Source: Aurantiochytrium sp. KH105
Lineage: Eukaryota; Sar; Bigyra; Thraustochytrida; Thraustochytriidae
NCBI GenBank assembly: GCA_003116975.1
Contig: BGKB01000003.1
Coordinates: 496,001 to 560,000, forward strand
Direction of reading: 5' to 3'
Length of the DNA: 64,000 nt
Positions 30,212 to 60,931 of the stretch are shown here, in pieces. The position numbers were made by a program, and so were the translations under genes. The notes under the pieces are model-generated. The model saw only the letters and a list, made by a program, of their open reading frames with translations, was not told the DNA's origin and searched no databases. The stretch's first letter is position 1, and each line of letters starts with the position of its first letter.

Positions 30212-31017
30212 TCTGTTCACGTCTCGTTGCCTTTCCAGACCTTTTTCTTTGCCACGAGACCTGCTGCTCAGCCGCACCAGTCTCTGTTCGCGAAGGCAGT
30301 CCTCTCGCACATCACCACACCTATCTATCTAAGCTTTATATACATACTATACGTGCCTACTTTTCCCAGTTTTTGTATCTGACAGAAAGAACTGTTAGCT
30401 TGTCGCCATCTGCGAACAAATAACAACCAAGTTTGTTCTCACCCTAGGCCTACCTACTTCTTCTCTTTCCGTATGGAGACAAGCGACTTTTGCTGACCTC
30501 ATTTGGCTTCGGCAAGAGTTCCTTCTCTTTCACACGCTTTTCGCATCTTTGATGCTTGGCACTGGACACGAATGATCACCCACATGGCACTGCCGTGATG
30601 ACTTCGATCACTATTATTGGTATCACTGGCATCATGACTCACTGTCAATGGCATGGCCTGCAGTGCCATGAGTCACTGGATCAATCACATCGTAACGGTC
30701 ATTTGCACAATACATAGAATACTGGGACTCTGGGCCCCACTTCATTTCTTTCTTTTTTGTTTGCTATCACACTGACATACGAAGCGGCGATCTGCGCGCA
30801 CCAAGCCCAGGCCAAGCGCGGGTCGCGCCCGCTCGCCCGCTTCGAAAAACAGCCAAGGACTTTGGACTCCGGACCTGCTGTTGCTGCTGCTGCTGCTGCT
30901 GAGACCTCGCGTCTCGCTGTCACCGTACAGGCGCACATGCGCACATGCGCACAAGCCGAGCGAGACGCAGACCGGACGCTGACCAAGAGAAGGCAACGTG
31001 CTTCGAGCGAGCGCGTG
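30212..31017. other. Intergenic region upstream of receptor gene
   Basis: About 800 bp, AT-richer than the coding flanks. It probably carries the terminator of the small gene and the promoter of the receptor. A run of related ATCACT/CACTG/CATGGC sequences at 30590-30690 looks like short dispersed repeats. The receptor frame is open upstream to 30757, but without an ATG that would give a signal peptide directly. Confidence 0.45.
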
Positions 31018-34000
31018 ATGGAGAGACGACGACAGCAAGCCTCACGGCAACGCGGACGCCGGCAAAGACCACGAGCTTGGACACAGCTGGCCGGCATCAG
31101 CTTAGTGCTGGCCCTGGCCCTGACGCAAACGAACGCGGACATGACCTGGGCGCCGCAATGTACAGATCGACTGCGCGTATGCCAAGACGGAGAGGACCCC
31201 TTTGGCGGCATCGACCTCGAGGAGAACCCCGCGCGAATATGCTCCGACAACAAGCTCGAACGCGCCACCGTGATTCTTACAGGTGCTGCATGGAGATCCA
31301 GCATGTACAACCTATGGATTGCTCAAATCATTCTCGAGGAACAGCTCCAGGTTCCAGTACGTATCGAAAACGTTAATGGTGGGTCAACACCGTATTGGTA
31401 CTACGACAACAGTGAGCTTGATAAACTTGACGGGCGCGTTTACTCTTGGGACGCCCTCCATCTGGCCTCCACCGGGTCCATGGACTGCTCCACGGGCTTT
31501 AAGGCTATTTACGGTGGAAGCCCGCCAGCAGATCTCCAAGAAGCTGGCTGCACCGAGGATTGCCTCCCTTGCGCACATGCCATGCTCGAAATATGGCCGA
31601 GCGGCCAGGAAGACAACTACAACGAGTATGTTCTCCAGCGCAAAACTGTCGAAGATGGTGGCCGCCTCGGCGCTGTTGGGGAATTTGGCTGGTGGGCCTC
31701 CAAGAGCGTTCTGGACCAAGACCCGCTCCTGTCGTCATTTCGAGGCATGAAGGACGCAAACGCGACGGCAGTTTTCCGATATCCCCTCACGTTTGGTGAA
31801 TATTGCCAGCGCACAGAATCCGAGTGGGGTTTCATTGCTGCAGACTCCAATCCTTTTGCTTTAAACGCCTCTATTCCCTCCCATTTTTGCCACCTCTTCT
31901 TCGAATACGCCCTTCTGGCAGAGTACCAAATTGTTTACTCGCAAAGAATTGACCAAACGTACCACGATACACGCAGCCTTGTGCTCGAGCGTTGCGCGAG
32001 CAACAAAAATACAACAAGTGGACTCGTCTTTTACAGTTTATGCTCGCAATACTGGGTTACGCCAGAGGATCTGCAAGATGCGCTGCCTGTGGCTGCAACG
32101 CAGCTCATTCGCCAGGGATACGACGGTCGCAAATTTCTCTTTGAGGGCACATTTTCTTCCGACGGAACTGGCCTCGGCATGCTGCACTCCACGAGCTGTC
32201 CGGACTCGCCACTCATGCCCGTAACCCCTGGTGCCGAGCCATATGTTCGGTGGCAAAACCAGGGTGCAGACGGATACTCTCGCTTTCAAAACCGCGATTT
32301 TGACATCGTTGCCTCGCATGGTCTGCAGCTCCAGCCGTACAACGTGCGCAGTGAAGTGAGAGAAATATTCGAGGTGTCCGCGAGACTCATGCAAGCAGAC
32401 TCACCCAATGCGTCACCCATGCTCATCAGCTGGTCACGGCCAGATAGTCTCTTTTTGAGGCACAAATACCCCTTGGATGATGAACCATGGGGTAATTATT
32501 CCGGCCCAACCTTCGAGCTTGCAAAAGTTCAACTTCCTGATCATCCCTCCGAGGCGACCTGCGCTCCGTACAAGCGTTCTTTCGAGGACCGATGTACCCT
32601 CACGGAAGAAAATGAGGCGCCAGACGAACTGCAATGCGGCTACCAACCTGAAATCATCTACAAGGCGTTTGCTGCCAACCTGCAAAGCTATGCACCAGAA
32701 GCATATCGATTCTTGCGCCGATTTCAGCTGTCCCTTGATCAACAAGAGCTTTTGCTGGCATCGTTCGATTACGATACCATTTATCGAGAAATGGTCGCGC
32801 CGACACGAGCACGCACCATTGTTTGCGACTGGATTCGCAATAACACAGATATTTGGAAAGCCTGGCTGCCATCGACCTCACACCAAACGCGGTGCTTGGG
32901 AGAGCTTCAGGATCCCTTTGAGCGCGCCGATCTCGAAACATCCTCAACAGATGACGCTAATGCAACCTGCTCTGGGCATGGAACATGTTTCGTGACAGAA
33001 GAGCTCTTGCAAAAACATCCCAACGCTGGCGAATGCGAGTGCGATCAAGGATACGTCGGGGACGACTGTTCGGGGCTCGTTGACCCAGACTTGCTCAATG
33101 TCATCATCGGCAAAGACTTCTTGTTCTGGGTCGTTTTTGGCTTTCAGGTTGCCACGCTCCTCTACATTTCATCTGCGCGCCGCCTCTTCCGGCTGCACGC
33201 AAACGACTCGGTAGTGTTCCAGACGGCACATCCCTGGTTTATCGAGCTCATCATGCAGAGCGCGACAGCAGGCGCCCTTGGCCCCTTTGCGTGGGCTGGG
33301 CCCGTCACAGTCATCCATTGCATGCTGCGCCCCGTCTTTATTGCAGTCCCCTTTGCCATTATCCAGGGAGCCATTTTTACAAAGCTGCAGAGGAAAAAGT
33401 TGCGTCTGGCCATGAACACCGAAGATCTCAAGGCAACCATGCAAGCAATTGGATTCTGCTTGGTATGCCTCTTTGCCCTCTGGTTCGTGGCATTTACGCC
33501 ATCAACAGCCCGCAACAGGCTACCGGTCCGCGTTTGGGAAGAGTACGCTTCCTGCGAATACGGCTCGCAGCTCGCTGCATTTGAGGGCCTCCTTTTGGTC
33601 GGCTGTCTCGTCTTGCTCATCTCAAACTGCCGAACTGCCGTGGAGCTGCGTCTCAAACCAACCTACTTTAACGAAGGGCGCGATCTCATGTTGACGAGTC
33701 TTGCCACCTTTTTCGTGGCGACGCCAAGCTATTTTGCGGCACAGGTGGTCGTCTCCCCCTTGGAAGGCCCAAAGTTCCTTGTAATTTGCATGACCTCTCT
33801 TGCGACAATCTGGGTCGTACTCTACTTTCTCATCCATCCGAAAATTAAGGTTCATCTCTACAGTCCCGAACTTAACAACTTCAAGTTGGGACTCTTCCAT
33901 CCTACTGGCGACCCATCTCTCGCGATCGGCGACCCCGTGGCAGACATGCCCCGCATCCTCGGTGAGGCCGCGGCACGGAGATCTCAGGTGGCCCCATCAG

Positions 34001-35760
34001 CTGCGCGCCCAAGTGTCATCATCGCGCCCGGGTCCAAGATGCTTTCCGGAGAGGGAGCAACAAATGCAACCTCATCAAGACGCCGCATGAGTACCATGGT
34101 CGGATCCGCAATGGCTGCAGTACGGACGCGAGCTCAAGGCGCATCAATGCTTCGCCGCGTATCACAAATGGTCCCTGGCCCCATTAAGAGCGGACTTGCT
34201 CGAGCCTCAATCGTTGTGCCGGTGAATCGGCGTCATCAAGTGCATTTGGAGAACATTCAAGATCTCAATAGCTTGCAAGGCTTTCCCTCACCCGAAGTCG
34301 AGGTGAAGCGTGACCCGCACCATATGCACGACCCGCTCAAGCGCGCCTTGGCATACAGGAGCCCTGAAATGTACATGATCCTGGAGAAAAAGATTCAGGT
34401 TGTTTTGCGCGAAAATGCAGAGCTCACGAAAATCATCGAGGAACACAGAATCGATCCAGTCACTGGAGAAATGGACGAAGATTTCATGGACGCGCTGCAT
34501 CGCATCAAGATGGAGCATGAGGAGCGTGCGAGGCAGATCGAAGACGAACTCTTGGGTGAAATTGATCAACTCGAGGCAGAGCGAGAAGAGGAACGCGAGG
34601 ACATGTTGCGCCGACACCAAGATGACGTTGCAAATCTCGAGCAGGAAAAAGTTGACGCAGTCGAGGTCCTCAAGGCCCAGCACAAGTTTCAACAGCACAA
34701 GCTCATGGTGCTGGAGGCAGAAGGAAAACGCATGGCAAGCACCTTGCGCAATGCGCTCCCTTCATTCGAAATCTTTCTTGCGACGTATAACTTTGGTGTT
34801 TACGCGGAAGGGCTTCGCGTCCAGGGCCTTGACTCGACCGAAAAGCTCATTCTTGCAAGTGCCGACGACCTTCTTCACGCGGGTATACCCATTGGCCACG
34901 TACGCAAGCTACAGACCGTACTTGCTAGCATGAGCGATGCTGCGCCCTCCGTGGCCATGCCCGAGGGCGCAGAACCCAGGGAAGCAATTTCTCTTGTAAC
35001 CGAGTGGGCAGACGATGATTCCCGAATTGAGGGGGCGACCTCGTCGGAGCGACGGCGTCGGAAGCGGTCCGGGAAGCCGAAACTCAAGGTCAAACCAGCC
35101 TGGATCGAAAATTTCGACCCAGCAAGTGGCCGCAAATACCTTATACATCCACTTACGGGCGAGTCCAAGTGGGATGAGAGTGCTGGGCCAAAGAGTCCCG
35201 CGTCCAAGTTCGGGGCTCTTCTAAAGGGCACCGCCTCGCCGTCGCATCGGCAAAGCAAAGAGAAAGCGGGCAGCGTTTCTTCATCGCACGATCCGGGCAA
35301 CGAGGAAGCACTTAGCACCTCGCCATCACACCGCCAAAGCAAGGACGAGGCAAAGTCTGGTACACTTTCGCCGCCGAATGAGGCCTCCGCAGATGCTGCG
35401 GAAGAGACTGACGGGAAACTTCATTCGCGAGGGGCATCGCAGGTAACAGACCAGGAGGGGCTTGAAAAGCAAGTGGACGCTGATGAACAAGATATACACA
35501 CTCGCCAAGAACTCGAGAGCCGTGAACAGCACAAAGGAGGTGAAGACGAAACTTTAGTGGAGAGGAAAAGCTCCAAGAAGCACTCGTCGAGCGACGGCAA
35601 AGGGGGAAAGCGGCTTGCTCTTGACTGTGCGCCCATCGAGCAAGTGTATAGTTCCGATGAGAGCGACCAAGAACTCATTCTTGCAGCCACGTCTTCTGAC
35701 AAGAGCGGCTCCCGAATCGCTTCTGCGAAAAAGGGATTATTCACGAGGAAGAAAAATTAA
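31018..35760 (+). CDS. Class C GPCR with OpuAC-like ligand-binding domain, EGF-like, SAM and WW domains
   Basis: 1580 codons from ATG at 31018. Residues 1-40 are basic, then hydrophobic and end TQTNADM, as in a signal peptide. Residues about 80-620 resemble the bacterial glycine betaine/choline/carnitine binding protein fold (OpuAC): ATVILTGAAWRSSMYNLWIAQIILEEQ at the start, and at the end PEAYRFLRRFQLSLDQQELL with WIRNNTDIWKAWLP. Residues 649-685 are EGF-like (CSGHGTC to CECDQGYVGDDC). Residues about 701-942 hold seven hydrophobic segments of class C type, with HCMLRP in TM3 and a Cys in the second extracellular loop (YASCEYG). The cytoplasmic tail of about 640 residues has a coiled coil (1121-1235), a SAM domain (1246-1305), a WW domain (1360-1388, Trp-Trp spacing 22) and a repeated SPSHRQSK motif. 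It is likely a plasma-membrane receptor; the ligand, perhaps a quaternary amine, is inference. Confidence 0.85.
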   Translation: MERRRQQASRQRGRRQRPRAWTQLAGISLVLALALTQTNADMTWAPQCTDRLRVCQDGEDPFGGIDLEENPARICSDNKLERATVILTGAAWRSSMYNLWIAQIILEEQLQVPVRIENVNGGSTPYWYYDNSELDKLDGRVYSWDALHLASTGSMDCSTGFKAIYGGSPPADLQEAGCTEDCLPCAHAMLEIWPSGQEDNYNEYVLQRKTVEDGGRLGAVGEFGWWASKSVLDQDPLLSSFRGMKDANATAVFRYPLTFGEYCQRTESEWGFIAADSNPFALNASIPSHFCHLFFEYALLAEYQIVYSQRIDQTYHDTRSLVLERCASNKNTTSGLVFYSLCSQYWVTPEDLQDALPVAATQLIRQGYDGRKFLFEGTFSSDGTGLGMLHSTSCPDSPLMPVTPGAEPYVRWQNQGADGYSRFQNRDFDIVASHGLQLQPYNVRSEVREIFEVSARLMQADSPNASPMLISWSRPDSLFLRHKYPLDDEPWGNYSGPTFELAKVQLPDHPSEATCAPYKRSFEDRCTLTEENEAPDELQCGYQPEIIYKAFAANLQSYAPEAYRFLRRFQLSLDQQELLLASFDYDTIYREMVAPTRARTIVCDWIRNNTDIWKAWLPSTSHQTRCLGELQDPFERADLETSSTDDANATCSGHGTCFVTEELLQKHPNAGECECDQGYVGDDCSGLVDPDLLNVIIGKDFLFWVVFGFQVATLLYISSARRLFRLHANDSVVFQTAHPWFIELIMQSATAGALGPFAWAGPVTVIHCMLRPVFIAVPFAIIQGAIFTKLQRKKLRLAMNTEDLKATMQAIGFCLVCLFALWFVAFTPSTARNRLPVRVWEEYASCEYGSQLAAFEGLLLVGCLVLLISNCRTAVELRLKPTYFNEGRDLMLTSLATFFVATPSYFAAQVVVSPLEGPKFLVICMTSLATIWVVLYFLIHPKIKVHLYSPELNNFKLGLFHPTGDPSLAIGDPVADMPRILGEAAARRSQVAPSAARPSVIIAPGSKMLSGEGATNATSSRRRMSTMVGSAMAAVRTRAQGASMLRRVSQMVPGPIKSGLARASIVVPVNRRHQVHLENIQDLNSLQGFPSPEVEVKRDPHHMHDPLKRALAYRSPEMYMILEKKIQVVLRENAELTKIIEEHRIDPVTGEMDEDFMDALHRIKMEHEERARQIEDELLGEIDQLEAEREEEREDMLRRHQDDVANLEQEKVDAVEVLKAQHKFQQHKLMVLEAEGKRMASTLRNALPSFEIFLATYNFGVYAEGLRVQGLDSTEKLILASADDLLHAGIPIGHVRKLQTVLASMSDAAPSVAMPEGAEPREAISLVTEWADDDSRIEGATSSERRRRKRSGKPKLKVKPAWIENFDPASGRKYLIHPLTGESKWDESAGPKSPASKFGALLKGTASPSHRQSKEKAGSVSSSHDPGNEEALSTSPSHRQSKDEAKSGTLSPPNEASADAAEETDGKLHSRGASQVTDQEGLEKQVDADEQDIHTRQELESREQHKGGEDETLVERKSSKKHSSSDGKGGKRLALDCAPIEQVYSSDESDQELILAATSSDKSGSRIASAKKGLFTRKKN

Positions 35761-49981: not shown

Positions 49982-51544
49982 TTAGCGGTGCGAGGAAGTT
50001 CCAAAGCGCTCATCGCAGCCCAGAATGTCAACGTCCTGCGACATGGTCGTGGACATGACCCGGAACTTGTTAAGAAAGGTGTCCGCATCCAGGTAGCAGC
50101 CCTGCAGGTGGCGCGCCCCGGTCTCGGAGGTGAAGGCGTTGCGTCCGTGAAGCATGCGGCGGTTATTAAAGGTAATGAGATCTCCCGGACGCAGGCGAAA
50201 GAGGAAGCCGTACTTGTCCCACATTTCCTTGGACATGAGCAGCGTCCGGAAAGCGTGGTACGCGCGGTAGTAGGGCTCAACAAAGTCCTCGCGCACGCGA
50301 AGCGGGCCCTCAAAGGGGGGCGCCCAAAAGCAGGCCGTCACCTCGCCCAGGTAGTTGGTGTGGATGTGCGGGCGCTGGTAAAACATGCGCACGGGGAACT
50401 CACGATCAACGTGGTCCTTTTGAAATGTAGCGGGAACCGTGCTGAGAATGTGAAAGTGCTCGGGGTGACGAAGCTTGAACTCTTCCGCGACGGCATGCGC
50501 GTCGATGAGCGTGCTGTCGCCTCCCTTGACGCCTTCGTCGAAACGCAGGCAGTGGAGGAACTGCACGCCCGGCGGGGACTCGTAATAGGCGAGATCCATG
50601 TGCGGCTCCAACGCCTTGTCTGAGTACGCAATGTTGATGGGCTTGGGGGTAGCCTTGACGTCAAAGGTCTCGCCGTAAATTGCGTGCGAGCAGCTGCCCA
50701 CAAGGTTGGCCACCTTCTTCACGGTACCTTCCTCGACAGGGGTCTCTCGGATCATGCAGAAGCCGTCTCTCTCGAGGCGCGATACCCAGTCCCAGGCCCC
50801 GGCGTCGGACGCCATCACATCGGCGAAGTTGACCTCGGGAAGGAAAGTTTTGCTCGAGGTGCGTTCCGCGTGGTAAAAGCTTGCCGCTCGCGAGGCCTGT
50901 TCCTCCTCGATGGCACCGTGCGAGTAGGCGAATCTGCGGAGCCAGCTGGCCTCGTACTCGACTTCCTCGCCGTGGTGGTCGCGCCAGGCGATTGTCACGG
51001 TCTCGCCGTCGTCGAGCACCTCGCAGTTGAGCATGTCGAGCGCGCGGCTGCCGGGGAGGATGGTGCGGTCGTGCTTCTGGCCCGACTGGCTCATGCACCG
51101 CTCGCACTTGCAGTTGTCGCGCAGCCAGCACGCGTCAAACCTGTGCTCCGCGCCGTCCGCGAACCGCACGTGGAGCCCGTCCTCGCCGGCCTCCGCAGAC
51201 GCCACCGCCACGGCCCCCGCCGCGGCCGCCGGGGCCGCCGCCGCCGCGCTAGCCTGCGAGGTCTNCGCCGCCGCGTTAGCCTGCGAGGTCTGCGCCCGCG
51301 CCGGCGCCTTCGCGCGCGCCGCGTCCGCCGCGTCCGCCGGCGTCCGCGGCGTCCGCGTCGCGAGCCCGCGCGCCGCCGGCGTCGTCGTCGCCGCCTTCGC
51401 GAGCGTCGCCGTCGCCGTCGCCGTCGCCGCGCGCATCGTCGTCGTCAGCGCCGCCAGCGCCGGCGCCGCGCCCGCCGCCCGCGCGCGCGCCGCGCCCAGC
51501 CTCAGCCCCGCCGCCACGCCCGCCACGCCCGCCACGCCCGCCAT
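49982..51544 (-). CDS. BBOX1: Gamma-butyrobetaine dioxygenase (carnitine biosynthesis)
   Basis: 520 codons from ATG at 51544. The enzyme hydroxylates gamma-butyrobetaine to carnitine using 2-oxoglutarate, O2 and Fe(II). The related trimethyllysine dioxygenase is the main alternative. The first ~110 residues are Ala/Arg/Thr-rich without acids, like a mitochondrial targeting peptide. Then comes the zinc-binding N-terminal domain with FDACWLRDNCKCERC (CxCxxC) and WRDHHGEEVEYEASWLRRF. The TauD-like catalytic domain has the HxD iron ligands in PHMDLAYYESPPG (His315, Asp317), the distal His in NRRMLHGRNAF and the 2OG-binding Arg in GARHLQGCYLD. One ambiguous base (N, 51265) makes one residue unknown. 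It lies within a 27-bp tandem duplication in the linker. The gene diverges from the Kv channel gene. Confidence 0.85.
   Translation of the reverse strand: MAGVAGVAGVAAGLRLGAARARAAGAAPALAALTTTMRAATATATATLAKAATTTPAARGLATRTPRTPADAADAARAKAPARAQTSQANAAAXTSQASAAAAAPAAAAGAVAVASAEAGEDGLHVRFADGAEHRFDACWLRDNCKCERCMSQSGQKHDRTILPGSRALDMLNCEVLDDGETVTIAWRDHHGEEVEYEASWLRRFAYSHGAIEEEQASRAASFYHAERTSSKTFLPEVNFADVMASDAGAWDWVSRLERDGFCMIRETPVEEGTVKKVANLVGSCSHAIYGETFDVKATPKPINIAYSDKALEPHMDLAYYESPPGVQFLHCLRFDEGVKGGDSTLIDAHAVAEEFKLRHPEHFHILSTVPATFQKDHVDREFPVRMFYQRPHIHTNYLGEVTACFWAPPFEGPLRVREDFVEPYYRAYHAFRTLLMSKEMWDKYGFLFRLRPGDLITFNNRRMLHGRNAFTSETGARHLQGCYLDADTFLNKFRVMSTTMSQDVDILGCDERFGTSSHR
51250..51291. repeat. 27-bp tandem duplication containing the ambiguous base
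   Basis: TAGCCTGCGAGGTCT occurs at 51250-51264 and again at 51277-51291, 27 bp (nine codons) apart. The base after the first copy is N; after the second copy it is G. The ambiguity may reflect read mis-alignment in the repeat or a true variant. Confidence 0.8.
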
Positions 51545-52243: not shown

Positions 52244-52787
52244 ACTGGGCAGCCCGAGGCGGCGGTGGCGGCGGCGGCGACCTGCACTGCAGTGCGCCGC
52301 ATCCTGAAGGGGCCCGCCCGTTCGGCACCCGGGCGCGGGTCGGACGCAGGCAAACAGGGGGGTCCGCTTCCCACATAACATAGGAAATATATCCGTTCGA
52401 AAGGCCTTTGGCGGCGGCGGCAGCGGCCAAGGCCGACTTGGAGTGCCGCGCGAGCAGCAAGAAAGTGGCCATCGAGACGTTCGAAGCGAGGGAAGTCCGC
52501 CCAACCAGGTCGGCGTGCGATTAAGCTGTCAATCAGAAGTAAGCGTGTTTGTACTGACAAGCTTTGCTCCCCTTTTTGCTTTTGGGGTTGCGGCGCTCGT
52601 CGCGGCGTCGTGAGTAGAGCAAACGCAGAGAGAGAGACGCCCAAGGAAGTCGTCCGTCTGGCGAGCAGCGGGGCGCCCTTTGGTTTGGCGAGGGGTAACA
52701 GAGCAAAGCGTAGACGAGGATGAAGCAGAGAGAGAGTCGAGTCTGAAGATCTCGTCTCATTCGCCAAAGGTGCGCGAGCAAGAGAAG

Positions 52788-54737
52788 ATGGCGGCCAAAG
52801 CGGCCCCTCACGGGGAGCTCGACAGGCTCGACTTTGAGAAAATCACCTTGTCGCAGGCGGCGACCCTCGTACGGAGCACGTACCACACAGACAAGCGCAG
52901 AGAGGTCTTACAAAAGATTCCTGCGCGTCTCATCAACCATCGCAGCGTGCACCTCTTCATGTCGCCGGAAACCAAAATGCAGCTGCGCGAGATCTTCGAT
53001 CATATTGATGCAGATAAAAGCAATTCTGTCGACTTTGAGGAAATCCGTGATGGTCTCCTCGCCATGCAGGCTGGCATCTCAGACGATGAAATTCGTGAGC
53101 TCGTGTCGAGCGCTAATGGTAGCGGCACCATCAACTTTCAAGGCTTCGCCGCGCTCATGTTCCATGTCGAAGCCAGGCTTGCCAGGTCCGACGACGCGCA
53201 CCGAGAAGCCCAGAAAGCGAAACGCGCGCAACATTACGCGCACGCTCGACGGCAAACTTCGAGTCCCTGCCTTCGCGTGCTCGCCAAGCTCGCACGCTTC
53301 GCTTCCAAGCTTCGGGCAGGCGTGTGGGCCCTTGTGGACGACCCGGCCTCTTCGACAGCAGCGCGCATTTTCTCCAGCGTCATTCTCTCTCTCATTGTCA
53401 CCTCTTGCATTCTCTTCATGCTCGACGGTGTCCCTGCACTCTCGATTGTTCCTCACCTGCCAGATGCAATCAGTCGCTTCGAAGAGGTCTCGTCGATCAT
53501 CTTCTCCTTCGAGTTCCTTCTTCGAGTCAGCTCTTGCCCTTCTCTATGTTCCTTTGCGCGTAGCCCCGTGAACTGGATCGATCTTGTGGCCGTCATCCCA
53601 TTCTGGCTCGAGCAATACTTGAAGGCGTATCAGCAAGACACAGGCATAAGCGGCGGATCTTTTCGAGCTGTACGCCTTGTTCGCATTTTTCGCGTGCTCA
53701 AGGTCGGCAGATACTTTCGTTGGATGCACGTCTTTGTTGCTACCCTTCAACAAAGCATTTTTCCCTTGGGCATGGTTCTTCTCATCGTGATTATTGGACT
53801 TATCATCTTCGCGTCCCTTGTCTATTACGCAGAGAGAGGCACGTGGGATCCTCTTGCAAGATCTTTCGTCGTCACGCTCGCTGACGGATCGTCTGCGAAC
53901 GCTTCCTTTGACAGTATACCTGGAACCTTTTGGTTTATTATGAGCACGCTCACCACCGTTGGTTATGGTGATATGCGTCCGCGCACGATCATTGGCAAAT
54001 GCTTCGGAATCGCGACCGCCATCTTTGGCATTCTTATTTTGGCCATACCAATCTCGATCATCAGCACCAACTTCCGCGTCGAGTACGAACGTATGAAAAC
54101 GCGTCAAGAGATTGAGCAAGAGCAACTTATGCGCGGAACACTTTCCCCCGAGCAAATCTATCAGCAGATCCACGGTAACAAGCACTTGAAAAAGATTATT
54201 ACCGGCACCAGTGACTTTTCCATGGCCGCTGCCGCCTCAGACAACCAGCATGAACACCAAGGCTTTGCTGCTTCAGTCTACAAGAGCTGTAGGGCAAACC
54301 AGAAGCGAGTCCTCCGCGAACTTCGGCACAAGGAGCGCGACAATCGTCAGGATCTTCTCGACAATCTTCACGCGGTGCAAACACAATATCTCAACGCTCG
54401 ACCAGATGGAGCCGACCATCATCTTGCAGTCACAAATCCACTGGAGTCCGAGTTGCTGCGCGATCGTGCGCCAGGGACACTTTCCGGCGCCGAGCCTGGT
54501 GGCTGTCACGACCCGCAAGACGGCGCCGCGGAAGCGTCACCGCCGCACAATGTACCTTCAGGTCCAGGTTCAGGTCCAGGTCTCTCCCTTGAAGTCAGCA
54601 AGCTGCAGAGTCCGTCGGAAGAAAATCGTCCAGGTCCCACCACCGATGGTGCTCTCTCTGGCGCCGCATCCGCGTCCTCTGATATTGTTGACGATGCGGA
54701 AGTCAACGAGCTACTCCGCCATCTCGATCTTTTGTAA
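52788..54737 (+). CDS. Voltage-gated potassium channel with N-terminal EF-hand
   Basis: 649 codons from ATG at 52788 (context AGAAGATGG); upstream open sequence lacks an ATG. Residues 74-85 are a complete EF-hand loop (DADKSNSVDFEE), followed by a degenerate one (SANGSGTINFQG) that has lost its acidic ligands. The channel core follows: S1 about 192-215, S2 231-252 and S3 259-278. S4 is at 291-312, with Arg or Lys every third residue (RAVRLVRIFRVLK). S5 is 323-347, the selectivity filter TVGYGD at 390-395 and S6 405-430. S6 has AIPISII where Shaker-type Kv channels have PVPV. The C-terminal tail of about 215 residues has a charged helical segment (RVLRELRHKERDNRQDLL) and a Gly/Pro/Ser-rich stretch. 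There is no T1 or cyclic-nucleotide domain. It is likely a plasma-membrane K+ channel tuned by calcium through the EF-hand (inference). Confidence 0.88.
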   Translation: MAAKAAPHGELDRLDFEKITLSQAATLVRSTYHTDKRREVLQKIPARLINHRSVHLFMSPETKMQLREIFDHIDADKSNSVDFEEIRDGLLAMQAGISDDEIRELVSSANGSGTINFQGFAALMFHVEARLARSDDAHREAQKAKRAQHYAHARRQTSSPCLRVLAKLARFASKLRAGVWALVDDPASSTAARIFSSVILSLIVTSCILFMLDGVPALSIVPHLPDAISRFEEVSSIIFSFEFLLRVSSCPSLCSFARSPVNWIDLVAVIPFWLEQYLKAYQQDTGISGGSFRAVRLVRIFRVLKVGRYFRWMHVFVATLQQSIFPLGMVLLIVIIGLIIFASLVYYAERGTWDPLARSFVVTLADGSSANASFDSIPGTFWFIMSTLTTVGYGDMRPRTIIGKCFGIATAIFGILILAIPISIISTNFRVEYERMKTRQEIEQEQLMRGTLSPEQIYQQIHGNKHLKKIITGTSDFSMAAAASDNQHEHQGFAASVYKSCRANQKRVLRELRHKERDNRQDLLDNLHAVQTQYLNARPDGADHHLAVTNPLESELLRDRAPGTLSGAEPGGCHDPQDGAAEASPPHNVPSGPGSGPGLSLEVSKLQSPSEENRPGPTTDGALSGAASASSDIVDDAEVNELLRHLDLL

Positions 54738-55714
54738 ACCGTAGTACACCTACCGACGAACTGCAAAATGTATCATACTACTATACGCATACATCATTCT
54801 AACCATACAATCAAATCACCAGCCTATGCTTAATTCTTCGTGGTGCTCGCTCCTGCTCGTCGTTCGCATCGACCGACGCAGCCTCGGGCGCATCGCCGCC
54901 CGCCCGGGGTTGGGCACAGACAAGAACAAGGTGGGAAGCCTCTTTTCATCAAACCAGACACTCCCTTTTTCGACATATCTTAAACAGGCTGATGTTACTG
55001 AGTCCGTTAAAAGGTAGAGAGGTCTTTCGTTTCTGTCTGTCTGACTGTCTCACTATTTCCAAGTTGGGAGATGGGACTCCCGGAGGCGGACGATGGTGAT
55101 GCGATGGATAATGCGCAGGTCGTGCAATGCAAAGCAAGGCCCACGAGCCACGAGCTTCCTGAACAGCGAAGATATTTACGCCCATGTGCATCTGGCCGCC
55201 AGTCATGAGATAAAGTCACGAAGTAGCAAAAAGCGGATGGAGGGGTGAAGAGGGAGGGCATGAGCGGGAGGGTGTGAACGAACGAGGGAGGGACTATTGA
55301 TCAGAAAAGACGCGTCCAGAGCGAAACCTACGACAAGCCCTCGTTGGCAAAAAGACGTCGAAAGCACGCACGGTCAGGTAGCAGGCGCAAAGTAACAGAG
55401 CAATCAATTTCTGCAAGCAGACCCCTTCTGCTGCTGTTGTCGGAACGCAGCGCCATCGCTGCTGCCGCTCCCGCTGCAGCTGCAGCTGCACTTGCCTCGC
55501 TCGCTTGCAGCTGCCGCTGCAGCTACAGACTTGCACTCGCTCGCTCGCTCACTTACCTGCTTGCTTGCTTGCTTGCACGAGGTTGTAAAGGGAAACGACG
55601 AGCGAGCATTTGGCCGCAATAGAAAATCCTCCGCGCGCGTAGTAAAGGCTGAACCCGACCAGCTACATTGCAATCCATCAGGTGCCCAAGCTCACAAGGC
55701 CAGCCTCTCAGATC
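54738..55714. other. Intergenic region between Kv channel and myosin genes
   Basis: About 1 kb, both flanking genes on plus. The 3' part contains CTGCAGCTGCAG-type palindromic repeats (55471-55525) and GCTTGCTT units (55558-55575). The myosin frame continues upstream to 55682 without an ATG. No separate gene is seen. Confidence 0.5.
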
Positions 55715-58700
55715 ATGGCCGATATGGAGTCTCCCCAACGAACCTGGGGTCCAGACGAGAAGGAATGCTGGAAACTCTTCGACGTCAAAGTCATGGACAG
55801 TGAAAAGTCGGTTGTCCACGTCTGTGACAAGCGTGAGGGTAAAATGCAGACGTTCGATTTATCCGAGGTTCACAGCTTTGACCCAAGCCACCTTGTCGAC
55901 CTCGACAACATCTCCGATATGAACAACGTCCACGAAGGTCCGCTTCTCGATCTCTTAAGGCGGCGTTATGCGAAGAATGTCATCTACACCTTTACCGGCG
56001 ACATTCTCATCAGCATGAATCCGTACAAGAGCGTTTCCGGGCTCTACAAGCTTCCCCAGAGGGATGTCGTGACCTCTGAAGACGCCAAGCCACACCTGTT
56101 TACTGTGGCGGCACGCGCATTGGAGCATTTACGCGAAAACCCCGCAGAGGAACAGACTATCATCATCAACGGCGAGAGCGGTGCTGGCAAGACCGAGGCC
56201 AGCAAGCACATAATCAAACTCCTCAGTCATCTAAGTAGCGACTTGGGTGAAACGTCCCCGGACGACGTCGCCCTCCGCAACGTGCAGAGTCAGATCATCG
56301 ATACGAATCTGTTGCTCGAGGAGTTCGGAAATGCCAAAACTGTTCGGAATGACAATAGCTCGCGATTTGGTAAATACATTCGTCTCGAGTATCAGAATGC
56401 AGGTTTCTCACACCAGAATGCCTTGCTCACGGGCGCCCACATTTCCTACTTCCTGCTCGAGACCTCTCGAATCGTGTCTCGATCGAGCAAGGAAAGAAAT
56501 TACCATGTCTTCTATGCACTCTGCGAAGGAGCCTCCGACGAGGAGCGCCAAGTCCTCGGTATCCAACACGCCAAGGCGTACCGCTACCTGCAGCCTGTCT
56601 CGAAGCCTACCGCCGCCAAGACGCCCGATGCAGGGGATGACAGTGATGCTTATTCCATTGCTGGGCGTGATGAGCAAGAAGTATGGTGCGAGCTGAAGAA
56701 ATCCCTTCGCCGCGTCGGCCTTGACGATAACGACACGCTGGAGATCTCGAGGGGCCTTGCCACCATTCTCGAACTGGGCAACATCGAAGTCAAGGAGCGG
56801 GAGAAGTACACCAATGACAGTGAAACCGTGCAAAACGTCGTAGTGGCCGAGGTCGATCGAACGCAGCCAGCGCTCGTGCACATGACAGAACTTCTTGGAC
56901 TCGAAGTTGAAGCTGTGTGCCGAGCCCTCACAGGTCGCATCGTGGTCTCAAACTCTGCCCGAGGATCGATGCAGCGGGTTGAGTTGAGTCGCTCACAGGC
57001 GATAGAGTCCATCAATGCTTTAGCCAAGGCGATTTACTCGCGTCTCTTTGACTGGCTGCTGGTGCAGATCAATTTGCTTCTCGCGGGCGAGGCAGCTGCC
57101 GCAACCACTACTGCAGATCTATGCAGCTGCATCGGCATCCTCGACATTTACGGCTTTGAAATTCTCGAGCACAACTCCTTTGAGCAGCTCTGCATCAACT
57201 TTGCAAACGAACGGCTGCAGCGTCAGTTCAACTCCAAAGTCTTTGACGCAGAGCAAGAGCGCTACCTCGTCGAAGGCGTTGCCTGGGCAATGGAGGACTT
57301 TGGTGTTGACAACCAGCCATGCATCGATCTCATCGGGCAGACGCGTCTCGGTATTCTCTCCATTCTCGACGAGCAGACGCTCATGCTCTACCATGCCATG
57401 GGCATTAGCTCTGGCACGAGCATCAAGCGTTCGGCACGCCAGGTCGAGGAGCAACTCTTGCAAAAGCTCCATACAGCTCACGGCGGTAAGCACCCGAACT
57501 ACATCAAGCCGCGCATCGCGGGAACCACCTTTAAAGTTCGCCATTTTGCCGGCGTGGTCGAGTATGACGTTATCGAGTTCCCTCGCAAGAATACCGATAC
57601 CTTGCACTCGGACCTCATCATGCTCATGAGTGGCTCCACGCGTCCTTTCGTTCGCGGACTCTTCCAGCGCGATGTTGACGAGTTTTCTCGCGAGCAAGAG
57701 CAGCGTTCCGCAATCGCAAAGAAACGCATCTTTCAGACGAACTCGACGCGCCAGATCAGCGAGCTTGATCGCAAGCTTAATCGCAGGCGCATGGTTGATG
57801 GAGATGCCGAAAACCGCGCACCCAATCAATCTTCCTCGCGACTGTTGAATGATTGCGCTGAAGAAGAAGAAGAAGTGGAAGAAGACCAAAGCGCAACCGA
57901 TGAGGGGAGTTTGGGGGAGTCGTCGCCAACGCCGCCCGCCGACAACGCCAGTGGTGACCTCGAGCAAGAGGGAAAGAATGAGGACAATAATGACGATGGT
58001 GACGACGACGATGATGGCAGCGGGTCAGTGAGGGCCCCGCAGCACAGCTCCGCGAGGTATCATCATCGCACGGGCTCCATAGTGGAGAATATCTTCTCTG
58101 CAGAAGGCTTGCGCGCAAATTTCGCGTCTGAGAGTGGGCAGGGAAGCGCCGCTCAGCTCACCAAGGCCTCTCGCGTCTTTGCAGCACGTAATACGGTGGG
58201 ATTTCGGTTCAAGCAGCAACTGCGTGGTCTCATGACCATTCTCGATGCCGCACGACCGCATTACATCCGCTGCATCAAGCCCAACGCGCGGAAAATGCCG
58301 GACCTCTTTGAGTCTGATCTCGTTCTCGAACAGCTGCGATACATTGGTGTGCTGGAGACAGTGCGGATCCGCAAGACGGGCTACCCTGTCCGCTTTCGCT
58401 TCCCAGAGTTCTGCGCACGCTACGACCTGCTTCTGCGAGACAACGGGCTTCGAGACCTCAGCAACGACGAGATGGGCGTCGACGAAAGTGGTGGGATCTC
58501 CGACGGGATGCGTGAGGTCATCCGCCGTACACTTGACACAAACCTTGAGCCGGGACAGTGGCAGGTTGGCAACACAAGTGTTTTTCTTCGTGATCATCAG
58601 AACGACGCTCTCGATGCCGCACTGCGACGGGTCCAAGGAGAACGCGCCACGCGTATCCAGGCGCTCATGCGACAAGCAATGCAACGCCGGCGTTTTGAAA

Positions 58701-60931
58701 GCCACTTGCGCAAAAAGGGCGCTGCGACGCAGTTGCAAGCCTTTGCGCGAATGTGCAAGGCCTCCAAGGCATTCAAGGCCAGAATTGCCGAAAAGCGCCG
58801 TGTGGAAGCCATCTGGCAGCGTCTTGCTGAGCAGCTATACAAGAAACACCAAGAAAAACGCGCCAGCGCCATTCAGCAGTGGACCCGGGTCTGTCTGGAT
58901 CGCAAGCGCAATGCCGCAGCCGCCAAGATGCAGAGCATTGCAAGAGTCTTTCTCGCCAAGCGTCTTGCCAAGCGTGAGCGAATTCGCCAGGGCACGGAGC
59001 GCGCCCAAGAGGAAGCCGCCGTGAAACTGCAAGCTTTGGTGCGAGGTGTGCTTTCGAGGGCCAAGGTCTGTGGTCTCAAACGCTGGCGAAAGGCTGCTGA
59101 GCGTCTTCAGGTTGCATTGCGAGCATTTTGGCGCAACCGACAACTTGCGCGACGCATGCAGGCCTTGCATGAGGCTGCTCTTGCAGGCAAGTTTGAAGTT
59201 CTCAAGTCCACCTGTGAGCAAGCCCTCGATGAGGACTGGGAAGTCTGTGGAGTCCGCTGGTGGAAACGGAATCTCTGCACGCTTCTGCACTCTGCGGTCG
59301 TCTCGGGAAGCGTGGATACCGTTCGTTTCATTCTCGAGGAAGAGGCTGGTTCTGCGGTGCACGGCATTGCTCTTTCGCATTCGGTCGACGGCGCCGGGAA
59401 CTCTGCATTGCACGAAGCCTCGCGTCTGAAAAGCGAAACTTGCTTTGACTTGTGCAACTTGCTGGTGGACCATGTCGGCGCAAACAGCATGCCGCCTGAA
59501 GAAGACGAAATGCGTCGCGCGGCGCGAGGCAACAACGCTGAAGATGACAAAGTGATGCGCGACCTGTTGCTCAAGCGAAAGGTGCGCAAAACTTTCCACC
59601 GCAGAGTGGTCATGCTCGACCCTTCTAAGGGAACCCTGAGCTATTTTAAAAGCAAGCAGCAGACCACACCACGATGCGCCTTGAACCTTGGCAAGGAATG
59701 CGGAACGACTTTGCGGGTGAGCGACAGGTACCGCAACTGCTTCGAGATCCATTCGCCAGACCTGCTTTCGAACCAGTGCAAGGCCGGCCGAGTGCTCTTT
59801 AAATGTAGTACGCAAAAGCAGCTGCAAGAGTGGCTGTCTGCAATCCGGGGCGTTGAGGGCGTTGGCTTCATGGCAGCTCTTTCCGCACTGGAGCGGATCG
59901 ACCGTATCAGCTGGAGCCAGGTTCTTGCATACATTCTGCAAGAGAACGGCCAACAGCAAACTGTCCTTCACCTCGCTGCGGCACGGAGCCTCGAGCTCAC
60001 ACTTTGGCTCATGGCCGTCGTCTCGTATCAGGGCCCGCTCTCGCTGGTGACCTTTCTCGAGACCCCAGATGCTGCGGGTCTCACGGCACGAGCTCACGCT
60101 GCCCAGGCCGGTCGAAAAGATATCTGCGCTGCCATAGACACACTGCAGGACACCCTCAACCGCAGCTCCAAGCTCGCGTCAGCCGGACGCCGATCCATCA
60201 CTCCACGGACGCTGCTCAGTAGTGCCAAGTCGGGCGGGACCTATTTGTCACTCTACATTGGCCGTCTCTCGATTCCGGGCCCCGAAGGCCTCGAGGACCC
60301 CGTACTCATCATTTCTGTCGTGAATGACGTCTCGGCCAACAAGCTTTTGGAAGAGGAAGAGGAAAAGGAGGGCAGCGGCCGCTCTTCACCACAACCAGCA
60401 CAACTCAAACCAGAGCCGTCTTCTGCAAGCCTGCATGGTGCGGTGAAAGCTGCACAGTCCCGAGCTGCGAGCACCAAGGAGAGCGATCTCGTTGAGGAGA
60501 GGATTGTGCTCCACCCGTTGCACGTCAAGACAAGCACCTCGGAAGATGGCAACACGCTTACCAACACGAGTCTCAATTTCGGCGCAATGTGGCATATGCA
60601 GACCCCCTTGGAGCAGCTCTCCAACTCTGTCACGGTTGTTCTTCAGCTTTGCCATGGCAAAAGTCACAACAAGGTCAAGAGTATCGTGCGTCTTCCCTTC
60701 AATGCGCGAACCATTGGTGTGGGTACGCTGAGCCCTGGACCCCAGGAAATGGTGCCCGCGGAGGTCGACCTCACCCGGAATCCGGGTCCCTTTGCGCGCG
60801 CGGTTGCAATGCTTGGCTTGAACAAGAAGCCCGTTGCAGCCCCTCTCGATCCGACCAAGGAAAACGAGGTCATGAACGTGAAAGTGCACTATAGCCTTCG
60901 TTCGCAGCCTTGCGTCAATTGCTTTGAATAA
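55715..60931 (+). CDS. Myosin with IQ, ankyrin-like, PH and C2-like tail
   Basis: 1738 codons from ATG at 55715 ([11 protein letters not shown]), a single exon. The motor spans residues about 60-930, with P-loop GESGAGKTE (153), switch I [9 protein letters not shown] (212), switch II/relay [23 protein letters not shown] (477 on) and actin-binding [12 protein letters not shown] (about 846). The converter is near 880 ([20 protein letters not shown]). Loop 2 is unusually long and acidic (about 714-770, ending [10 protein letters not shown]). Six or so IQ motifs follow to about 1149. The tail then has two ankyrin-like repeats ([31 protein letters not shown]) and a PH domain (about 1293-1386, ending [11 protein letters not shown]). 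Two more ankyrin-like repeats come next ([33 protein letters not shown]), and then a C2-like region with an acidic insert. There is no long coiled coil, so it is probably monomeric and membrane-directed. Confidence 0.85.
   Translation: [1738 protein letters not shown]

Follow-up and report, generated by a model that had tools for sequence, protein, structure and literature searches.

The window analysed here is a 64,000-nucleotide stretch of contig BGKB01000003.1 from the thraustochytrid Aurantiochytrium sp. KH105, and it contains a gene for a class C (Glutamate) G-protein-coupled receptor (GPCR) whose extracellular head belongs to the OpuAC superfamily. In the familiar class C receptors the seven-transmembrane (7TM) domain is topped by an ANF flytrap. 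In the window protein the OpuAC-type head is followed, in one frame, by an EGF-like module, a 7TM domain, a coiled coil, a SAM domain and a WW-like domain (Table 1), the order that a first-pass annotation of the bare sequence had proposed and that is conserved in relatives. We think it reasonably likely that a head of bacterial ancestry has replaced the ANF flytrap, that its pocket has been re-shaped, and that the receptor senses a small solute and carries a scaffold in its tail.

The receptor frame is open throughout, although its exact start is ambiguous because a second in-frame ATG lies upstream at 30937. The assembly (76 Mb, 367 contigs, with eukaryotic genes including myosin and SRP68) has a second copy of the gene on contig C19 that is 98% identical, and many other loci score as near-identical pairs, so both haplotypes are probably present. 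Over 1580 codons the two alleles differ at 108 synonymous and 36 non-synonymous codons with no insertion or deletion. Non-synonymous divergence (dN) is 0.011 and synonymous divergence (dS) 0.108, giving a dN/dS of ~0.10 overall, and dN/dS is <0.3 in each of the six protein parts tested. The ectodomain has a dN of 0.009 and a dS of 0.149, and the highest dN of the six parts is found from residue 1311 onward. Since the frame is open, the alleles free of indels and dN/dS low, the frame encodes a single protein under purifying selection.

Eight relatives were found in a search of 5.8 billion proteins, and the same eight were recovered by a profile search confined to the 8000 candidates with the most words in common. 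The aligned relatives have in common the ligand domain, EGF-like module, 7TM domain and coiled-coil motif, and most also have SAM and WW; the same order is seen in proteins that are 38-66% identical. The nearest named relative (P0002, from the thraustochytrid Hondaea fermentalgiana) shares 96% identity across the alignment; residues from about 446 to 628 are absent from it, and its N-terminus is different. This is perhaps a gene-model fault, as both alleles and the other seven relatives have these residues. P0006 stops short of the SAM and WW domains, and the head of P0009 is missing its start. One relative, P0004, shares 51% identity with the window protein and is catalogued under the dinoflagellate Durusdinium trenchii; it may represent either contamination or a true gene or transfer.

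Pfam families were scanned against the single window protein using the curated cut-off for each family, and weak matches were cross-checked across the window protein and its relatives (n=9, matches at E<=1). In this profile search, which the first-pass annotation had suggested, 7tm_3 scored 45.1 bits against a cut-off of 33.5 (residues 724-942) and was matched in 9/9 members, as was EGF. OpuAC (14.9 bits, cut-off 21.2, residues 187-249), SAM_2 (14.1 bits, cut-off 20.5) and WW fell below their cut-offs in the window protein and drew support from the family. WW was matched in seven of the nine members and SAM_2 in six, with best E-values of 2.5e-6 for SAM_1 and 2.8e-5 for SAM_2. The family profile matched EphA2 SAM alone at E 1.9e-4 and a fusion chain of SHIP2-SAM and EphA2-SAM at E 2.5e-8, the latter in two stretches, and at the family level the SAM domain is present. 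A query made from the tail (342 aa) matched only this gene and its allele in the genome. The signal peptide of the first-pass annotation is visible by eye in the translation, but the crude hydropathy scan gave no flag there.

The OpuAC nature of the head is apparent from both sequence and fold. BLASTP with the single window ectodomain matched 24/24 rows of bacterial OpuAC proteins (E<=1; best hits 3.6e-15 to 0.003, assuming a database of 2e8 letters), and control searches with one reversed and one shuffled ectodomain gave 0 matches. Profile-profile comparison (hhalign) of the ectodomain with OpuAC receptors gave a probability of 99.75% and an E-value of 2.9e-27 over 350 columns. The C-terminal motif of the ligand domain, which had been quoted as OpuAC-type in the first-pass annotation, does line up with the last residues of bacterial OpuAC proteins, WVDANEDVWRTWLP being one example. 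A Cys pair (C526, C540) is common to receptors and bacterial proteins in 36/36 rows of alignment A6, which comprises eight sequences of the window group, 24 bacterial proteins and four OpuAC receptors (P0015-P0018), and leaves out P0002, where part of the head is missing, and P0010-P0012. In a first model (residues 40-960, nine orthologue rows) most of the ectodomain was below 50 in predicted local distance difference test score, and this model was used for the 7TM domain only. The closest folds to the modelled ectodomain are binders of osmolyte- or quaternary-amine-type ligands. An ordinary ANF fold, the outcome that the first-pass annotation had set against its own proposal, was checked for, and the ectodomain is of the OpuAC type; Pfam gave no match at E<=1 to ANF, NCD3G or Cache in the window protein. 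Lobe 2 contains an insert that has no counterpart in the bacterial rows or in those of the clustered OpuAC receptors.

The bacterial rows come from a GTDB genome scan that returned 59 loci, by title mostly Chloroflexota (Anaerolineae, Caldilineaceae) and Acidimicrobiia with a few others. From these, 54 open reading frames (ORFs) were extracted, many with a lipoprotein-like start by eye, and 24 were hand-picked for alignment on completeness and spread. Among the 29 neighbouring ORFs listed at eight loci, ten were scanned: seven (five loci) were ATP-binding cassette (ABC) permeases or ATPases, and the other three comprised a GMC oxidoreductase, a phosphofructokinase and an ORF that matched nothing. 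No ABC transporter was found among the 10 scanned of 31 long ORFs in the window. Two verrucomicrobial ORFs (L117:2174-4825 and L121:1578-4271, both + strand) each combine OpuAC with PAS and a second binding domain of the ANF/Peripla_BP_6 type.

The pocket was mapped by alignment only, using two bacterial proteins in which the aromatic box is described as intact: TmoX (W55, W102, F106, E131, W177, F220, W222; PMC8918994) and DmpX (W35, T64, W84, E113, W152, A153, Y200, W202; PMC10030565). At the TmoX positions, in order, the window protein has W92, W193, Q197, F223, F423, S471 and S473. Across the window group the F106 position is Gln, the E131 position Phe, His, Tyr or Thr, and the F220 position Ser or Asn. 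An aromatic cage for quaternary amines, which the first-pass annotation proposed to look for, is not supported as such: two TmoX cage Trp are kept, the third is Phe, and the fourth is Ser and unconserved in orthologues. An aromatic box of three to four residues with polar contacts is not found, the W222 and E131 positions being lost, although W92, W193 and F423 could possibly form a three-sided box. E222, R422 and R474, which adjoin cage positions, are invariant in 8/8 window-group rows. As the W222 position varies while these three residues do not, we read the pocket of the window group as re-shaped but in use. With half of the Trp cage lost and these charged residues fixed, the pocket probably accepts a small solute outside the classic quaternary amines, or one held differently from them. 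At the same positions P0015-P0018 read W, W, H/Q, I, W, Y and W, keeping the four cage Trp and not E131.

The predicted (AlphaFold2) model holds seven helices, whereas the crude hydropathy scan flagged only 5. Its best Foldseek matches are mGlu3, mGlu2 and CaSR, and a profile search matched the 7TM domain to mGlu3 at E 1.1e-7. Class C hallmarks are described as a Cys pair, a basic residue in transmembrane helix 3 (TM3), an acidic residue near TM6 and a PK motif in TM7 (PMC3727952). C768, C846, K789 and E886 are kept in 15/15 rows (K789 being the one examined of two basic residues), and P941-K942 of TM7 in 9/9 family rows. On its 7tm_3 score, its seven-helix fold and these residues, the protein is a class C GPCR. 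The genome gave 27 G-alpha matches over the cut-off, with both haplotypes counted, and their presence would be only permissive for coupling. The G-alpha genes lie on contigs C314, C245, C160, C38 and others, some in small clusters, and form a large set for a unicellular protist.

The genome encodes further receptors with the same kind of head and the same 7TM class, their ectodomains being homologous to that of the window protein. Eight OpuAC-7tm_3 frames (L001-L008, 822-1071 aa) are clustered on contigs C34 (four), C258 (three) and C204 (one), with haplotypes unseparated. The three that were scanned (P0010-P0012) exceed the cut-offs for both OpuAC (59.6-66.7 bits) and 7tm_3 (66.8-104.5 bits), have no match to EGF, SAM or WW, and the clustered receptors are 20-23% identical to the window protein over the alignment. 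By eye in alignment A4, the four cage Trp are all present in P0010 and P0012, and in P0011 the W177 position is Tyr. Because the four-Trp cage is kept in P0010 and P0012, the clustered receptors are better candidates than the window protein for receptors of glycine betaine, trimethylamine N-oxide (TMAO) or dimethylsulfoniopropionate (DMSP). A tree of the ectodomains (without the truncated P0009) joins the two receptor groups against the bacteria, but the join is weakly supported (56/87) and carries a long-branch warning. A 7TM tree (without L052, and with cut points hand-set from Pfam ranges) leaves them in an open fork, unjoined. Also of this kind is P0014, a Hondaea 'Metabotropic glutamate receptor-like protein B' with, by eye, two OpuAC heads and one cut-short 7TM domain between them; the public model may here have run two adjacent genes together.

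A survey of 29 other class C ORFs took about one per allele pair (a few may be alleles, and some are cut by the fetched flank) and left out L063, for which a frame on the wrong strand had been picked. Ten carry ANF, one Peripla_BP_6 only, one PBP_like_2 (L045, at the cut-off of 27.0), one Phosphonate-bd and two a weak Cache-like match, one of these below the cut-off, while 14 have no ligand-domain match. With several ligand-domain types present, varied heads are common among the class C receptors of this organism. The phosphonate-binding example (L066:885-3860, - strand, 992 aa) has PF12974 at 91.5 bits and 7tm_3 at 52.6 bits and is possibly a phosphonate- or phosphate-type receptor. In L023:1306-3753 (- strand) sCache_2 (27.5 bits, cut-off 25) lies ahead of 7tm_3.

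Several observations weigh against our account of the window protein. Within it OpuAC, SAM and WW are each under the Pfam cut-off. OpuAC was matched at E<=1 in just 5/9 family members, and precomputed Pfam annotation gives it for none of the eight relatives, both of which count against the OpuAC observation itself. The good model of the ectodomain relied on an alignment that included the 24 bacterial OpuAC rows. The WW-like domain lacks, by eye, the usual end Pro, and the PK mark of TM7 is missing from the clustered OpuAC receptors. Finally, both alleles score lowest (50.8 and 51.5 bits) among the 69 7tm_3 matches listed for the genome, so G-protein coupling may be unusual.

Different explanations of the protein were considered. 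The first-pass annotation took the window protein itself to be an osmolyte or quaternary-amine receptor, binding a ligand such as glycine betaine, choline, TMAO or DMSP in an aromatic cage. Ancestry makes this plausible, as the closest folds bind such ligands, and W92, W193 and an aromatic residue at 423 are kept, the setting is marine and the clustered OpuAC receptors retain the cage. The pocket weakens it, with the W222, F220, F106 and E131 positions altered as above and conserved charged residues newly present, and we consider it possible but doubtful. The partial loss of the cage, together with the large group-specific insert in lobe 2, could also indicate that the head no longer binds a ligand alone and instead has the role of a dimer or structural partner, or that of a protein binder. 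Strong purifying selection on the ectodomain speaks against this, as do E222, R422 and R474, whose invariance is as in a re-shaped site in use, and a head of this sort is unlikely.

A further alternative places the function in the tail. SAM, WW and the coiled coil are scaffold modules and the 7TM domain is divergent, as in a G-protein-independent 7TM surface scaffold or adhesion protein that signals through its SAM-WW tail. We hold this to be slightly more unlikely still, given that the class C hallmark residues are kept and the genome has a rich G-alpha set. The public Hondaea model without about residues 446-628 might suggest that several genes have been taken for one, or that the assembly is faulty. 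Such a fusion or artefact is scarcely credible and was rejected: the order is conserved in relatives, the two alleles are indel-free, and dN/dS is low in all six parts. Separate transcripts, which the first-pass annotation had raised against itself, are unlikely because the frame is conserved.

The joining of OpuAC to 7tm_3 is not new. Krishnan et al. (2012, PMC3251606) describe six proteins of Allomyces macrogynus that join a PF04069 OpuAC head to 7tm_3, as in the window protein. The Allomyces receptors are fungal, the accessible part of that report does not mention EGF, SAM or WW, and the likeness is one of described domain content. Class C receptors of diatoms that bear binding-protein heads have also been published (PMC3727952), while the word OpuAC is absent from the main text of an eLife 2025 survey of choanoflagellate and related receptors. 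The first-pass annotation knew of no well-studied receptor with the full order; this stands in so far as no description of the order with EGF, SAM and WW was found in the open literature searched, within the terms used, and does not extend to the OpuAC-7tm_3 joining.

TmoX, DmpX, OpuAC, ProX and ChoX are solute-binding parts of ABC importers and not receptors, whereas the window head is fused to a 7TM domain. The mGlu and CaSR receptors have the 7TM fold and signature residues in common with the window protein, but carry an ANF flytrap and NCD3G where it has OpuAC and EGF, the EGF-like module lying where NCD3G sits. An ANF (type I) ligand domain also marks the GABAB subfamily, to which the window protein likewise does not conform. 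Oomycete GPCR-bigrams are likewise stramenopile 7TM receptors with extra, mostly C-terminal domains; as described, theirs are catalytic (PIPK, TKL, INPP, AC, PDE, protease), whereas those of the window protein are binding modules (PMC5784254). In mGlyR (GPR158), a non-ANF ligand domain is described atop an EGF-like domain on a class C 7TM domain, as in the window protein (PMC12716839). The family profile matches GPR158 weakly (E 0.006), and the ligand domain of mGlyR, in keeping with the mGlyR/GPR179 subfamily, is Cache where that of the window protein is OpuAC. We know of no SAM or WW domain in mGlyR.

Table 1. Features of the receptor gene, with positions in the window and residues of its product
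Feature	Position	Strand	Basis or remarks
Receptor coding frame	31018..35760	+	P0001; 1580 aa plus stop
Likely signal peptide, long basic n-region	31018..31140	+	By eye; hydrophobic stretch ~residues 24-40
OpuAC-type ligand domain (type II periplasmic-binding-protein fold), residues ~82-618	31261..32871	+	Sequence and fold matches
W92 (TmoX cage W55)	31291..31293	+	W in 6/7 window-group rows covering the stretch and 24/24 bacterial rows
W193 (TmoX cage W102)	31594..31596	+	W in 36/36 A6 rows
Lobe 2 insert, residues ~255-410	31780..32247	+	Alignments; group-specific; limits approximate
F423 (TmoX cage W177)	32284..32286	+	Window group: F 7/8, W 1/8
S473 (TmoX cage W222)	32434..32436	+	Window group: S,S,E,Y,Y,H,S,Q; W/Y in the other 28/28 A6 rows
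EGF-like module between ligand domain and 7TM domain, residues 647-687	32956..33078	+	EGF_alliinase 27.1 bits, cut-off 25
Class C 7TM domain, residues ~692-945	33091..33852	+	7tm_3; model matches mGlu3/CaSR
Conserved stretch after TM7, NNFKLGLFHPTGDPSLAIGDPVADMPR	33868..33951	+	Alignment A1
Coiled-coil region with conserved motif HRIDPVTGEMDEDFMDALHRIK	34345..34737	+	By eye; alignment A1
SAM domain, residues 1248-1300	34759..34917	+	Pfam and family profiles
WW-like domain, residues 1360-1386	35095..35175	+	22.2 bits, below the cut-off of 26.9
Charged, low-complexity-looking C-terminal tail	35176..35757	+	Alignment A1; poorly conserved

Elsewhere in the window, the convergent neighbour P0013 (35858-38023, - strand) is a frame of 721 aa in which several membrane-like segments can be seen by eye; it matched nothing in Pfam at E<=0.1 or in the PDB at E<=1. 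A gamma-butyrobetaine-hydroxylase-like gene of the carnitine pathway (TauD and GBBH-like_N; 49982-51544, - strand) lies ~14 kb from the receptor, and its closeness to a receptor with a betaine-type head is probably chance. On the + strand, 52680-54737 is a single frame with an EF-hand pair followed by an ion channel (Ion_trans), and 55682-60931 is a 1749-aa frame in which a myosin head precedes IQ, ankyrin repeats and a PH domain.

For the receptor with a re-shaped OpuAC head, a mechanism can be proposed. An extracellular small solute would close the two lobes of the head, and the EGF-like module, placed between the ligand domain and the 7TM domain as in mGlyR, would pass this movement to the seven helices. 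The receptor may then act on a G-alpha protein, of which the genome has many. Going by the known behaviour of these domain families, the coiled coil and SAM would hold receptors together and WW would dock a partner at the inner face.

More speculatively, and as a suggestion we regard as somewhat doubtful, this thraustochytrid class C family may sense marine methylated solutes (glycine betaine, TMAO, DMSP and chemical relatives) through a head derived from bacterial ABC importers. The clustered receptors would have kept the ancestral ligand class, and the single-copy window receptor would have been re-tuned to a related solute and, with its built-in SAM-WW scaffold, would work in clusters as a surface sensor in the search for food or surfaces. 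We know of no class C receptor for DMSP, TMAO or betaine, and the receptors described here are concrete, testable candidates for the sensing of these solutes by marine protists. The same 7TM class that elsewhere bears the ANF flytrap here bears a different bacterial binding protein, an EGF-like module placed as in mGlyR and a scaffold tail, and the head of a class C receptor thus appears to be both exchangeable and re-tunable.
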